From positions 2,153,501 through 2,217,500 of the forward strand of contig NZ_CP088296.1 of the NCBI RefSeq assembly GCF_024666595.1: DNA of 64,000 nucleotides, in the 5' to 3' direction. The notes under the pieces are model-generated. The model was not told where the DNA came from, ran no database searches, and was given only the letters and a program-made list of their open reading frames with translations. Below are positions 11,134-16,375 of the stretch, in pieces. The stretch is from Sphingomonas sp. J315. GTDB taxonomy: Bacteria > Pseudomonadota > Alphaproteobacteria > Sphingomonadales > Sphingomonadaceae. How positions within the stretch are numbered: the first letter of the stretch is position 1; each line of letters begins with the position of its first letter. The position numbers and the translations under genes are program-made.

Positions 11134-13074
11134 ATGGACTTCAGAGAAAGCCAGGAAACGAGCGTGAGTGAAACCGTGACCGATACCGTAGAGACGCTCG
11201 TCGAGCCCAAAACTGCTGCGCCGGAAAAGGCTGCCAAGACGAAGAAGAAGATCGACACCAAGTCGGTCGCCCCGCGCATCTACCCGGTCGAGGTCGATCA
11301 TTCGCGCGACGCGCTGCTGACAGAATTCGGCAAGGACACGCTCAACGACCGCTATCTGCTGCCGGGCGAGAATTATCAGGACCTGTTCGTCCGCGTCGCG
11401 TCCGCATATGCCGATGACGCCGCGCACGCCCAGCGCATCTACGACTATATCTCGCGCCTGTGGTTCATGCCCGCCACCCCCGTGCTGTCGAACGGCGGCA
11501 CCGGGCGCGGCCTGCCGATCAGCTGCTTCCTCAACTCCGTCCCCGACAGCCTCAACGGCATCGTCGACACCTGGAACGAGAATGTGTGGCTCGCCTCGCG
11601 CGGCGGCGGCATCGGCACCTATTGGGGCAATGTCCGCGGCATTGGCGAACCGGTCGGCCTCAACGGCAAGACGTCGGGCATCATCCCTTTCGTCCGCGTG
11701 ATGGATTCGCTGACCCTCGCGATCAGCCAGGGCAGCCTGCGTCGCGGTTCGGCCGCCTGCTATCTCGACATCAGCCACCCGGAGATCGAGGAGTTCCTCG
11801 AAATCCGCAAGCCCAGCGGCGACTTCAACCGCAAGGCGCTGAACCTCCACCACGGCGTGCTGATCCCCGACGCGTTCATGGAAGCGGTGCGCGCCGGCGC
11901 CGACTGGGACCTCAAATCGCCCAAGGACGGCAGCGTCCGTGGGTCGGTCAACGCCCGCGCGCTGTTCCAGAAGCTGGTCGAAACCCGCCTCGCGACCGGT
12001 GAGCCGTACATCGTGTTCGCCGATCACGTGAACAACAACATGCCCAAGCATCACCGCGATCTGGGCCTCAAGGTCTCGACCTCGAACCTCTGCTCGGAAA
12101 TCACCCTGCCGACCGGCAAGGACCATCTGGGGAACGAGCGCACCGCGGTCTGCTGCCTCTCCAGCCTCAACCTCGAAACCTGGGACGAGTGGAAGGGCGA
12201 GAAGGGGTTCATCGAGGACGTGATGCGCTTCCTCGACAACGTCCTTCAGGACTATATCGACCGCGCCGAGCCGGGCATGGAAAAGGCCGCCTATTCGGCC
12301 AGCCGCGAACGCAGCGTGGGCCTCGGCGTGATGGGCTTCCACAGCTTCCTCCAGGCGCGCGGCCTGCCGTTCGAGGGCGCGATGGCGAAGACCTGGAACA
12401 GCAAGATCTTCAAGCACATCAAGGCGCAGGTCGACGAAGCATCGATGCAGCTCGCGGTCGAGCGTGGCCCGTGCCCCGACGCCGCCGATATGGGCGTGAT
12501 GGAGCGCTTCAGCTGCAAGATGGCGATCGCGCCGACCGCGTCGATCAGCATCATCTGCGGCGGCACCAGCGCGTGCATCGAACCGATCCCGGCCAACATC
12601 TACACGCACAAGACGCTGTCGGGCAGCTTCTCGGTCAAGAACCCGTATCTTGAGAAGATTCTGATCGAAAAGTCGAAGAACAGCGACAATGTCTGGAACT
12701 CGATCCTCGAGCGTGGCGGCTCGGTCCAGCATCTCGACTTCCTGACCCAGGAGGAAAAGGACGTGTTCAAGACGTCGTTCGAGATCGACCAGCGCTGGCT
12801 GCTCGAACTCGCCGGCGACCGCGCGCCCTATATCGATCAGGCCCAGTCGCTGAACCTGTTCATCCCGGCCGATGTCGAGAAATGGGACCTGCTGATGCTC
12901 CACTTCCGCGCGTGGGAGCTCGGCATCAAGTCGCTCTATTATCTCCGCAGCAAATCGGTGCAGCGCGCCGGGTTCGCGGGCGGGGTCGAGGCCGACAACA
13001 CGATCGACGCGCCGCAGTTCAACCTGGGCAGAATCGACCGATTACGACGAGTGCCTGGCTTGCCAGTGAGCTAA
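11134..13074 (+). CDS. nrdA: ribonucleoside-diphosphate reductase subunit alpha (3' frameshift)
   Basis: Class Ia large subunit, reducing ribonucleotides to deoxyribonucleotides with NrdB. Catalytic residues are present: Cys131 (ISCF), Asn318-x-Cys320-x-Glu322 (SNLCSE), the partner Cys near 341, and the radical-transfer pair Tyr602-Tyr603 (SLYYLR). The start at 11134 follows a GGGGA ribosome site. There is no N-terminal ATP-cone, only a short Lys/Ala-rich extension, so the usual dATP off-switch is absent. The last residues are out of frame: after NL the frame reads on to a stop at 13072-13074. Removing one G from the run 13026-13028 restores the essential C-terminal DYDECLACQ and a stop at 13067-13069. 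An assembly error is the likeliest cause, since that Cys pair is needed to re-reduce the active site. Confidence 0.93.
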   Translation: MDFRESQETSVSETVTDTVETLVEPKTAAPEKAAKTKKKIDTKSVAPRIYPVEVDHSRDALLTEFGKDTLNDRYLLPGENYQDLFVRVASAYADDAAHAQRIYDYISRLWFMPATPVLSNGGTGRGLPISCFLNSVPDSLNGIVDTWNENVWLASRGGGIGTYWGNVRGIGEPVGLNGKTSGIIPFVRVMDSLTLAISQGSLRRGSAACYLDISHPEIEEFLEIRKPSGDFNRKALNLHHGVLIPDAFMEAVRAGADWDLKSPKDGSVRGSVNARALFQKLVETRLATGEPYIVFADHVNNNMPKHHRDLGLKVSTSNLCSEITLPTGKDHLGNERTAVCCLSSLNLETWDEWKGEKGFIEDVMRFLDNVLQDYIDRAEPGMEKAAYSASRERSVGLGVMGFHSFLQARGLPFEGAMAKTWNSKIFKHIKAQVDEASMQLAVERGPCPDAADMGVMERFSCKMAIAPTASISIICGGTSACIEPIPANIYTHKTLSGSFSVKNPYLEKILIEKSKNSDNVWNSILERGGSVQHLDFLTQEEKDVFKTSFEIDQRWLLELAGDRAPYIDQAQSLNLFIPADVEKWDLLMLHFRAWELGIKSLYYLRSKSVQRAGFAGGVEADNTIDAPQFNLGRIDRLRRVPGLPVS

Positions 13075-13077
13075 ATT

Positions 13078-13131
13078 CCCTCTCCCCTTGGGAGAGGGAG
13101 GGAGCCGCCGCAGGCGGCGGAAGGGTGAGGG
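13078..13131. repeat. palindromic repeat, left of DUF559 gene
   Basis: A perfect hairpin block CCCTCTCCCC-TT-GGGAGAGGG (13078-13098) is followed by a second palindrome built from CCGCCGC/GGCGGCGG and the tail GGAAGGGTGAGGG. The same two-hairpin-plus-tail design recurs at 13474 and, inverted, at 13551. It starts nine bases after the corrected nrdA stop and could also terminate nrdA transcription, although no T-run follows. Confidence 0.85.
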
Positions 13132-13133
13132 TG

Positions 13134-13925
13134 ATGCGTCTGTATCAGGACCAGCCATCTGGAACGGTGGATCAGCTCCGCACCCTGCGCCGCCACGCAA
13201 CCGAGGCGGAGAAACATCTCCGCCGCGCGCTGCGGGAAGCCTTCCCCGAAGCCAAATGGCGCTTTCAGGCTCCGGTCGGCCCGTTCCGCGTCGATTTCCT
13301 GTGGTTCGCGGCGCGACTGGTGATCGAGGTCGATGGCGGCCAGCACGCGGAGGACGCCGAATGCGACGCCCGCCGCACCCGCTTCATCGAAGGTGAAGGC
13401 TATCGCGTGATCCGCTTCTGGAACAATGATGTGCTGAACAACACCGACGGCGTGATCGCGACAATCGCAAATTCCCTCTCCCATTGGGAGAGGGAGGGAG
13501 CGCCAAAGGCGCGGAAGGGTGAGGGTGACACACCTCAAGGCCATTCCCGCTCACCCTCACCCCGCGCCGCTGCGGCTTGCCCCTCTCCCAATGGGAGAGG
13601 GGATGAAGGAGCACCGCCCATGATCCGTCTCCTCCCCCTGCTGGGCCTCACCCTCCTCGCCGCCTGCGCACAGCAGGTCGCGACCGGTGTCGAGCCCGGC
13701 GCGCCCGGCTTCCTGCTCGGGCTGTGGCACGGCTTCATCTTCCCGGTCGCCTGGGTGCTCTCGCTCTTCGTCCCCGACGTCGCGGTCTATGCCGTGCCCA
13801 ACAATGGCGGCTGGTATGATTTCGGCTATTTCCTCGGCATCTGCGTGTTCGGCGTCGGCGCGCATCGCGGGAAAAAGGTCGTGGTCAAGGAGCGCGTCGT
13901 GGTGCGCGACCGCGATCCCCTGTGA
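13134..13925 (+). CDS. DUF559 (VSR-like) endonuclease-domain protein, reading on through repeats
   Basis: The first ~110 residues are a DUF559 domain, a small PD-(D/E)xK-type endonuclease fold related to very-short-patch-repair enzymes: LRRHATEAEKHLRRAL, KWRFQAPVGPFRVDFLW, LVIEVDGGQHAE with the catalytic Asp/Glu, RTRFIEGEGYRVIRFWNNDVL. Length and motifs are complete. The frame has no stop of its own: it runs through two repeat copies (residues from about 114 to 162) and continues into the lipoprotein at 13620-13925. Function of DUF559 proteins is not established; the fold suggests DNA cleavage. The ATG sits directly after the left repeat. I read the functional part as 13134 to about 13480. 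Confidence 0.8.
   Translation: MRLYQDQPSGTVDQLRTLRRHATEAEKHLRRALREAFPEAKWRFQAPVGPFRVDFLWFAARLVIEVDGGQHAEDAECDARRTRFIEGEGYRVIRFWNNDVLNNTDGVIATIANSLSHWEREGAPKARKGEGDTPQGHSRSPSPRAAAACPSPNGRGDEGAPPMIRLLPLLGLTLLAACAQQVATGVEPGAPGFLLGLWHGFIFPVAWVLSLFVPDVAVYAVPNNGGWYDFGYFLGICVFGVGAHRGKKVVVKERVVVRDRDPL
13474..13530. repeat. palindromic repeat, right of DUF559 gene, direct copy
   Basis: CCCTCTCCC-ATT-GGGAGAGGG (13474-13494), then GCGCCAAAGGCGC and GGAAGGGTGAGGG, in the same orientation as the copy at 13078. It is translated in frame as the tail of the DUF559 reading frame. Confidence 0.85.
13551..13602. repeat. palindromic repeat, inverted copy
   Basis: CACCCTCACCCC, a GCGCCGCTGCGGC block, then CCCTCTCCC-AAT-GGGAGAGGG (13581-13601): the same element as at 13474 but reversed, so the two right-hand copies form a large inverted repeat about 20 bases apart. 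Confidence 0.85.
13620..13925 (+). CDS. small predicted lipoprotein with membrane segments
   Basis: A 101-residue protein starting just after the inverted repeat. The N-terminus MIRLLPLLGLTLLAAC is a lipoprotein signal with the lipobox Cys at 16. Two further hydrophobic stretches follow (FLLGLWHGFIFPVAWVLSLFVPDVAVYAV and FGYFLGICVFGVG), then a basic, valine-rich C-terminus (KKVVVKERVVVRDRDPL). It resembles small proteins often found near such genes in sphingomonads, but no function is known. It is in frame with the DUF559 reading frame, which could be a coincidence of missing stops. Confidence 0.7.
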   Translation: MIRLLPLLGLTLLAACAQQVATGVEPGAPGFLLGLWHGFIFPVAWVLSLFVPDVAVYAVPNNGGWYDFGYFLGICVFGVGAHRGKKVVVKERVVVRDRDPL

Positions 13926-15970: not shown

Positions 15971-15999
15971 CGTCACCCCGGCCTTGTGCCGGGGTCCAC
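15971..15999. repeat. palindromic repeat, 3' side of GIY-YIG gene
   Basis: GTCACCCCGGC-CTTGT-GCCGGGGTCCAC, a near-perfect palindrome lying between two converging genes. It matches, in inverted orientation, the copy at 16346-16375, and a third copy occurs at 53513-53539. It may also act as a bidirectional terminator. Confidence 0.85.
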
Positions 16000-16332
16000 T
16001 CATCCGCGCGCTATCGCCGTCAGCGGTTCCAGCCCCAAACCCACCGCCAGATCGTTCCACATGGGGTTCTCGCGTTCGATCAGGTTGCGCTTCCACTCCC
16101 GGCGATACCGCTTGACCTGCTTCTCGCGCCGGATCGCGGACTCCATCGTCCCGCCGACCTCGTAATAGACCAGCCGGTGAATGCCGTGGCGCTTGGTGAA
16201 CCCATCGAACGTACCTGCGCGATGCTGGACGATCCGGCCAATCAGGTCGGAGGTCACCCCGACATAAAGCGTGCCGTTAAACGCGCTGGCGAGGATATAG
16301 ACGCAGGGTAGGCGCTCGATCATTGGAGACAT
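16000..16332 (-). CDS. GIY-YIG nuclease-family protein (UPF0213-like)
   Basis: A 110-residue stand-alone GIY-YIG domain. The fold motifs are CVYILASAFNGTLYVGVTSDL (the GIY..YIG pair in its VYI..YVG form), the catalytic Arg in IGRIVQHRAG, HRLVYYEV, and the Glu in ESAIRREKQVKRYRREWK. This group is small, often multicopy, and of unsettled function; a structure-specific or mobile-element-like nuclease is likely. The gene is framed by inverted copies of the same palindrome (15971 and 16346). Confidence 0.9.
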   Translation of the reverse strand: MSPMIERLPCVYILASAFNGTLYVGVTSDLIGRIVQHRAGTFDGFTKRHGIHRLVYYEVGGTMESAIRREKQVKRYRREWKRNLIERENPMWNDLAVGLGLEPLTAIARG

Positions 16333-16345
16333 TGTCGGCCTTCCG

Positions 16346-16375
16346 GTGGACCCCGGAACAAGTCCGGGGTGACGG
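16346..16375. repeat. palindromic repeat, 5' side of GIY-YIG gene
   Basis: GTGGACCCCGGAACAAGTCC followed by GGGGTGACGG: the reverse complement of the repeat family seen at 15971, differing by a few loop bases. Together the two copies form inverted repeats around the GIY-YIG gene. Confidence 0.85.

Follow-up and report, generated by a model that had tools for sequence, protein, structure and literature searches.

DUF559 nuclease genes lie between inverted hairpin repeats in several phyla and probably form a REP/RAYT-like partnership with them

Does a nuclease gene enclosed by copies of one palindromic repeat work together with that repeat, as in the REP/RAYT elements (repetitive extragenic palindromes and REP-associated tyrosine transposases)? 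The question is raised by a gene of the DUF559 (PF04480) family, located between nrdA and nrdB in a stretch of 64,000 nucleotides from Sphingomonas sp. J315 (NZ_CP088296.1, forward-strand positions 2,153,501 to 2,217,500; hereafter the window), which is part of a 3.93-Mb single-contig genome. Comparison with other loci revealed that DUF559 genes are found between inverted hairpin repeats in bacteria of several phyla, and this flanking is a real and general observation. It is fairly probable that the DUF559 gene and its flanking repeats constitute one functional unit, namely a small PD-(D/E)XK nuclease with a cognate, G/C-rich structured repeat, which we read as a partnership of the REP/RAYT kind in which the nuclease is unrelated. 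The features of the locus in the window are as follows.

13078..13131, + strand: left repeat, consisting of the hairpin CCCTCTCCCCTTGGGAGAGGG, a second hairpin and the tail GGAAGGGTGAGGG, which is directed at the gene
13134..13922, + strand: reading frame of the DUF559 (PF04480) nuclease, with its ATG at 13134 and the domain at about 13173-13478
13474..13525, + strand: first right repeat, in direct orientation with respect to the left repeat
13551..13604, - strand: second right repeat, inverted, pairing with the left repeat on the other side of the gene (flank-alignment score 60)
13620..13925, + strand: downstream small gene (MIRLLPLLGLTLLAACAQ...), in frame with DUF559 and with its own start at 13620

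The coordinates and orientations of the three repeat copies given in the original prediction were confirmed. The hairpin CCCTCTCCC..GGGAGAGGG is located at 13078-13098, 13474-13494 and 13581-13601, and with up to three mismatches it is matched six times in the window (three places, both strands), compared with a mean of 0.02 after shuffling. All copies had been described as sharing this hairpin, a second hairpin and a tail; the two direct copies do so in full, while the inverted copy carries variants of the second hairpin and of the GGAAGGGTGAGGG tail. The window copies start with AAATTCCCTC or its equivalent. The two right copies form an inward-facing pair on their own, with a gap of 25 bp, so that the layout of the locus is a single repeat, the gene and a gene-less pair. 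The DUF559 profile matches residues 14-115 of the frame counted from ATG 13134 (98.8 bits, E = 2e-28). As had been noted, the frame lacks its own stop and reads on through the repeats and the downstream small gene to 13925; a profile search with this small gene (13620-13925) gave no Pfam match.

To compare flanks, the 400 bp upstream of each gene and the reverse-complemented 400 bp downstream were aligned locally, and the best score was taken, with a cut-off of 36. The window's genome contains six PF04480 matches, five of them full, and all five full genes lie inside an inverted pair of palindromic repeats (scores 57-120); the five pairs all differ in sequence. In the genus set, which includes these five, 31 of 34 loci scored at least 36 (maximum of 35 in 192 control windows of the same loci). 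Two of the three misses, L041 and L051, are windows misplaced because their contigs are cut, and a cross-locus control for this set (mean 63) was set aside because its high values were attributed to orthologous loci on opposite strands. The loci of five other multi-copy genomes gave 18/20 (two of them also in the genus set; control maximum 34, n = 238), and within five genomes, the window's included, the best match of a left repeat was its own right repeat in 22 of 24 cases. At class level, 18 of 29 alphaproteobacterial loci reached the cut-off (L137, at a contig end, excluded; maximum of 31 in 171 control windows), as did 63 of 78 usable loci from named genomes, compared with 9 of 2596 control windows. 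The named genomes span the alpha-, beta-, gamma- and deltaproteobacteria, Chloroflexi, Planctomycetota, Gastranaerophilales, FCPU426 and others; L190 lies at a contig edge, and L186, which matched through masked N only, was dropped, reducing 64/79 to 63/78.

In six genomes examined further, 25 of 30 places were scored (three scored earlier and two fragments were excluded; six of the 25 were already in the multi-copy set) and 23 reached the cut-off, including 18 of the 19 newly scored genes (200-bp flanks, without a control run). Inverted flanks were also found at three of three Deinococcus and one of three cyanobacterial loci, and the single Nitrospirae locus scored 32. Among loci from the plasmid collection, Sinorhizobium L296 has a clear pair (101) and Neisseria a borderline one, distant from the gene (36), and no pair was detected at three Azospirillum loci (19-28), in Klebsiella (20) or at two E. 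coli loci (20). The 27 phylum-sample loci (L264-L290) stand outside these counts.

The repeats are specific to the nuclease gene. A hairpin-plus-tail motif, shaped on the alphaproteobacterial loci, was applied within 200 bp at 79 of the 80 named loci (L186 included). Inward-facing copies were present on both sides of DUF559 at 34 of the 79 loci compared with 1 of 407 other open reading frames of at least 100 residues in the same loci (Fisher p = 3e-29), and on at least one side at 64/79 compared with 24/407 (Fisher p = 6e-45). Their density per locus was 5.6-6.6 per kb at less than 100 bp from the domain and 0.01-0.05 per kb beyond 1 kb. DUF559 genes are thus beside such repeats far more often than other genes are; the outcomes that would speak against the original prediction, DUF559 being no more repeat-adjacent than other genes or the repeat being absent in relatives with the gene, were not seen.

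Repeat subtype tends to follow nuclease lineage. On a genus-level tree of 56 DUF559 proteins, repeat subtype, assigned by author-made patterns with four rows as 'other', needs 9 changes (mean 31.9 when shuffled; as low in 0 of 200). D-type flanks correspond to exactly one clade (7 of 44 rows, support 99/96). Paralogues at separate places in genome G010 (L145 and L147; L149-L151) carry the subtype of their clade, and the match is therefore not merely due to shared flanks of one ancestral site. Repeats of the D type number 16, 144, 28, 71, 5 and 9 in the six genomes with a D-clade nuclease, 0 in G005, which is without one, and 0 in G021, where three of seven DUF559 matches were examined. The match of lineage and subtype that was to be checked is hence present as a tendency. 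Strict pairing of repeat and nuclease was rejected, as it fails in G018: a D-clade gene was expected there, and an E-type gene was found together with a decayed one nearest to L005 (E type). The decayed gene (L380) is still bounded on each side by E-type repeats that are altered but can be made out by eye, as if the gene and its repeats were decaying together.

Within the window's genus, 113 of 121 genomes have a DUF559 match; within its phylum, 145 of 398 sampled genomes do. Across the 121 genus genomes, those with more DUF559 matches, weak and partial ones included, also have more copies of a general repeat pattern (rho 0.68, p = 6e-18, uncorrected; rho 0.26 for a reversed control pattern). 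Copy numbers are 2-14 (median 4.5) in the eight genomes that lack a match, and the median is 17 at one match (range 2-263) and about 160 at 7-10 matches.

A PDB search with the predicted structure of the window's DUF559 protein (mean pLDDT, the predicted local distance difference test score, of 87.6) gave four matches at E ≤ 0.001, namely 3hrl (a putative Neisseria endonuclease), the catalytic domain of the homing endonuclease I-Bth0305I (two chains) and a Toxoplasma mitoribosomal chain. The match to the Vsr fold is weaker (E = 0.007). Residues E26, Q45, D54, D67, G68, H71, R81 and R94 (window-protein numbering), among others, are invariant in 57 aligned DUF559 proteins. The family profile, these conserved residues and the predicted fold agree with membership of DUF559 and of the PD-(D/E)XK enzymes, and the protein is predicted to have a Vsr/homing-endonuclease fold (Vsr/EDxHD-like). 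YcjD, the E. coli DUF559 protein, was named in a 2005 text as an already identified PD-(D/E)XK member, and its profile detected Vsr (PMC1189080); Caulobacter VsrA, also a DUF559 protein, is described in the relevant passages as DNA-damage-induced and as a proposed repair endonuclease (PMC12907096). The predicted fold and conserved residues are shared with Vsr, VsrA and the EDxHD homing endonucleases; the difference is that none of these was found described as the partner of dispersed structured repeats in the passages returned by the literature search.

The repeats also occur as pairs without a gene. In a 400-kb sample of G018, 38 of 45 motif copies form 19 inward-facing pairs, 17 of which have gaps of 30-47 bp; six copies are solitary, and no tandem pairs within 700 bp were found. 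These dispersed inverted pairs are REPIN-like. A site at which pairs with and without the gene can be compared is accD-folC, where the window's genome has a repeat pair and a DUF559 gene. No DUF559 signature was detected there in the 27 relatives scanned: bare junctions of 23-42 bp were found in L304, L307, L322, L330 and L331, gene-less pairs in, for example, L305, L308 and L311, and other sequence in the rest.

Such sites could also be read as the work of a homing-like parasite, in which the nuclease would cut gene-less pairs and its gene would be copied in by recombination, making the pairs targets and not offspring. The presence of I-Bth0305I among the nearest folds fits this, as does accD-folC, where relatives have a gene-less pair or a bare junction and the window's genome has pair plus gene; the gene-less pair is, however, of another subtype in L305 and L308, though similar in L311, so the pair has not simply been filled in all. 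Homing alone also leaves unexplained that repeat copies greatly outnumber nuclease genes. We regard this explanation as unlikely.

The copy between nrdA and nrdB looks inherited and old, judging by the sequence comparison, and not freshly inserted. The stretch between the two genes could be delimited at 15 of 30 loci; at the other 15, the nrdA end was not found in the 1500 bp available upstream, and these are uninformative. DUF559 is present in six of the 15 (the window's own, L064, L070, L077, L078 and L083) and absent in nine, so that at this site, as at accD-folC, relatives lack the gene. In these nine, 490-1357 bp remain between nrdA and nrdB, and DUF559 is therefore not the cause of their separation; the suggestion that it splits nrdA from nrdB is not upheld. 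L056, whose nrdB is 99% identical, has no DUF559 gene at the site. A word of the DNA of the downstream small gene recurs between nrdA and nrdB in 6 of 14 delimitable relatives. The eight nrd-linked DUF559 genes placed in the genus tree, two of which (L156 and L162) were assigned by their distance to nrdB, form one clade (support 98/95), and the simplest history would thus be an old insertion followed by later losses. A recent insertion is unsupported given this single clade, although 9 of the 14 delimitable relatives are without DUF559. The end of nrdA itself (13009-13074) appears frameshifted in the window: three relatives read NLGESTDYDECLACQ, the window frame reads NLGRIDRLRRVPGLPVS, and the C-terminal cysteines sit in another frame. 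A sequencing error is possible.

On three Deinococcus plasmids, DUF559 genes are located at three different positions among the genes of the hpa (4-hydroxyphenylacetate) cluster (L355, L356 and L357), a hint that they were inserted separately. Of 5374 genomes with a match at E. coli ugpB-ugpA, 306 cover at least 80% of the pair-bearing allele, and two other aligned alleles (K-12 and strain 108) carry a different repeat sequence there, which we take to be BIME-like (bacterial interspersed mosaic element); two alleles at araA-araD show a similar pattern. BoxC-like alleles are thus found at spots where other strains have a different repeat (L385-L392), as if repeat families replaced each other at the same spots.

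BoxC/PIT, a G/C-rich motif of E. coli, is counted 23 times in MG1655, with five occurrences as inverted pairs; it folds into an intrastrand triplex in vitro, a stable triplex in vivo being unsupported (Holder et al. 2015, PMC4666352). E. coli K-12 ycjD, which encodes a DUF559 nuclease, has a BoxC-like copy, CCCCTCGCCCCTCTGGGGAGAGGGTTAGGGTGAGGGG, downstream. This copy differs by one loop base from the motif inferred from the mutated control oligonucleotide of PMC4666352, and a BLAST search with it found 20 places in the MG1655 record, compared with the 23 counted there. The ycjD region was matched in 3365 of 5426 E. coli genomes. Forty sampled records were grouped by a match to the ycjD-side repeat and not by ycjD itself, with lineage as a confounder: of 26 with a match spanning 92-100%, 25 carry 14-28 places and one carries 5; of the other 14, ten carry at most 7 and four carry 14-22. 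Upstream of fabI, the E. coli site is occupied either by sapF, ycjD and the BoxC-like repeat or, as in two other E. coli records, by an efflux operon (L300 and L301 compared with L299); PMC12817139 also reports this.

The repeats that flank DUF559 look like BoxC/PIT. They consist of a hairpin and a G-rich tail, and among 100 distinct asymmetric alphaproteobacterial repeats the tail was closer to a mirror of the hairpin's 3' arm in 54 and to a direct copy in 15, with 31 tied. As the tail mirrors the 3' arm in most decided cases, an intrastrand triplex could form from a single strand, as in BoxC/PIT/TM; the arrangement of a pyrimidine arm, a purine arm and a third, purine strand as mirror was found in the alphaproteobacterial set. 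Repeat architecture and inverted pairs are common to both, and the sequence of the copy downstream of ycjD appears to agree too, as far as the text of PMC4666352 shows. The two differ in that no enzyme is named for BoxC/PIT/TM: 'endonuclease' and 'ycjD' are absent from the main text of that paper. The link between DUF559 and BoxC/PIT is the new part; no paper was recognised as tying DUF559 or ycjD to these repeats in a full-text literature search, outside which lie most subscription papers and bioRxiv.

A structured repeat of this kind could instead be the substrate of a repair enzyme, with DUF559 resolving or nicking the triplex or hairpin to protect replication, being kept because the host has repeats, and something else spreading them. 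The Vsr-like fold, the damage induction and proposed repair function of VsrA, and the instability described for the repeat loci of E. coli in PMC4666352 are in keeping with this, but the place of the gene inside the repeat pair and the lineage-matched subtypes are left unexplained. The Y1 transposase (PF01797, RAYT type), which is the sole other spreading enzyme searched for, is absent from 109 of the 121 genus genomes and present in 12; no PF01797 match was found in the window's genome, for which dependence of the repeats on a RAYT was rejected. A repair function of this kind appears slightly less likely even than homing. It is very improbable that the repeats serve the DUF559 gene as ordinary terminators or regulatory hairpins, their abundance elsewhere being unrelated: they do form hairpins at gene ends, but copies are scattered at a great distance from the gene, in the one genome sampled mostly as closely spaced inverted pairs, they match the gene's lineage, and PIT elements have no promoter or terminator activity according to earlier work cited in PMC4666352.

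The location of the gene inside inverted repeats, together with the possession by nuclease lineages of their own repeat versions, suggests that the DUF559 enzyme probably handles and spreads these repeats. The dispersed gene-less unit would be two inward-facing repeats with a short spacer, and the nuclease unit would be such a pair with the gene inside. The repeat would fold when single-stranded, during replication or repair, the nuclease would cut or nick beside the folded repeat, and copying or repair would then spread or renew the pair elsewhere; recognition of the fold, cutting and hence the spread or maintenance of pairs by the nuclease are what we infer from the sequences. The nuclease gene may remain for long at one site while the repeats turn over, as is the case for RAYTs and REPINs, where the nuclease gene is long-lived at one site.

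The parallel with REP/RAYT is a functional one. In both systems, the nuclease gene is a single one enclosed by palindromic repeats and persists for long, inverted pairs that lack a gene are scattered over the genome, and the repeat type matches the nuclease lineage (the repeat counts of G018 being the exception for DUF559). Membership fails on the defining enzyme, which is a Y1 HUH transposase in REP/RAYT and a PD-(D/E)XK protein (PF04480) here. Further differences are the triplex-type third strand of the DUF559 repeats and the tag: REP/RAYT repeats carry a GTAG/CGTC-type tag beside the hairpin, and GTAG is absent from the copies in the window, the only ones read for it. The REP/RAYT-like arrangement originally proposed for this locus is thus supported by the flanking, the dispersed pairs and the tracking of subtypes; the nuclease would have a mobilising or maintaining role in it.

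Several observations weigh against a partnership of DUF559 and its repeats. Cutting, binding and movement are inferences from sequence. No inverted pair was detected at 15 of 78 named and 11 of 29 class-level loci at the score used, the loci were mostly drawn from the best-scoring DUF559 matches, and at least one named locus that passes, L255, does so through a long inverted repeat of different sequence. The motif test was not blind, because the motif was written after the flanks of the named loci had been seen, and outward-facing copies show an enrichment as well, a weaker one that lies chiefly at 100-200 bp (27 copies). In G018, there are 200 D-type repeats and no D-clade nuclease among the five matches, and the abundance and subtype correlations are uncorrected for shared descent or genome size. 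The nrd-linked genes are a single old clade. Neither a target-site duplication nor an exact empty site was found in the sites compared, and at two E. coli sites the alleles differ by replacement, so that a clean insertion at ugpB-ugpA was rejected. The three Deinococcus plasmids have tails that point outwards, E. coli ycjD has a repeat on one side only, and in the subtype of the window a second hairpin separates the stem from the tail, which makes the triplex reading less clear for this subtype.

A second repeat-framed nuclease gene, of the GIY-YIG type, is present in the window.

16000-16332, - strand: GIY-YIG nuclease gene, identified by a profile match
15971-15999 and 16346-16374: inverted palindromic pair of the CGTCACCCCGG..CCGGGGTCCAC type, framing the GIY-YIG gene

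Of the GIY-YIG loci of the window's genus, to which the flank evidence for this class belongs, 24 of 29 in one set (control maximum 35) and 13 of 20 in another (control maximum 38) had matching inverted flanks with a score of at least 36. The repeat families at these loci are unlike those of DUF559. The DUF559 motif was present inward-facing on both sides of 40 of the 80 DUF559 loci on which it was shaped and of 0 of 49 GIY-YIG loci of the genus, with 1 of 49 having it on at least one side; the half of this comparison that uses a GIY-YIG word list is circular, because that list was derived from the same loci.

A wider reading, in which these are trans-phylum mobile elements whose PD-(D/E)XK nuclease would read a DNA triplex, with BoxC/PIT as non-autonomous copies and a parallel GIY-YIG class with different palindromic repeats, is tentative, being possible rather than probable. 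If it is true, a minimal nuclease with dispersed structured repeats would be a general strategy, arrived at independently in at least three superfamilies (HUH, DUF559 and GIY-YIG). The link of DUF559 to BoxC/PIT would turn the question of repeat origin into a bench experiment, with ycjD of E. coli K-12 deletable at once. The partnership described here offers the functionally uncharacterised DUF559 nucleases a role and suggests that partnerships of the RAYT type arose more than once.
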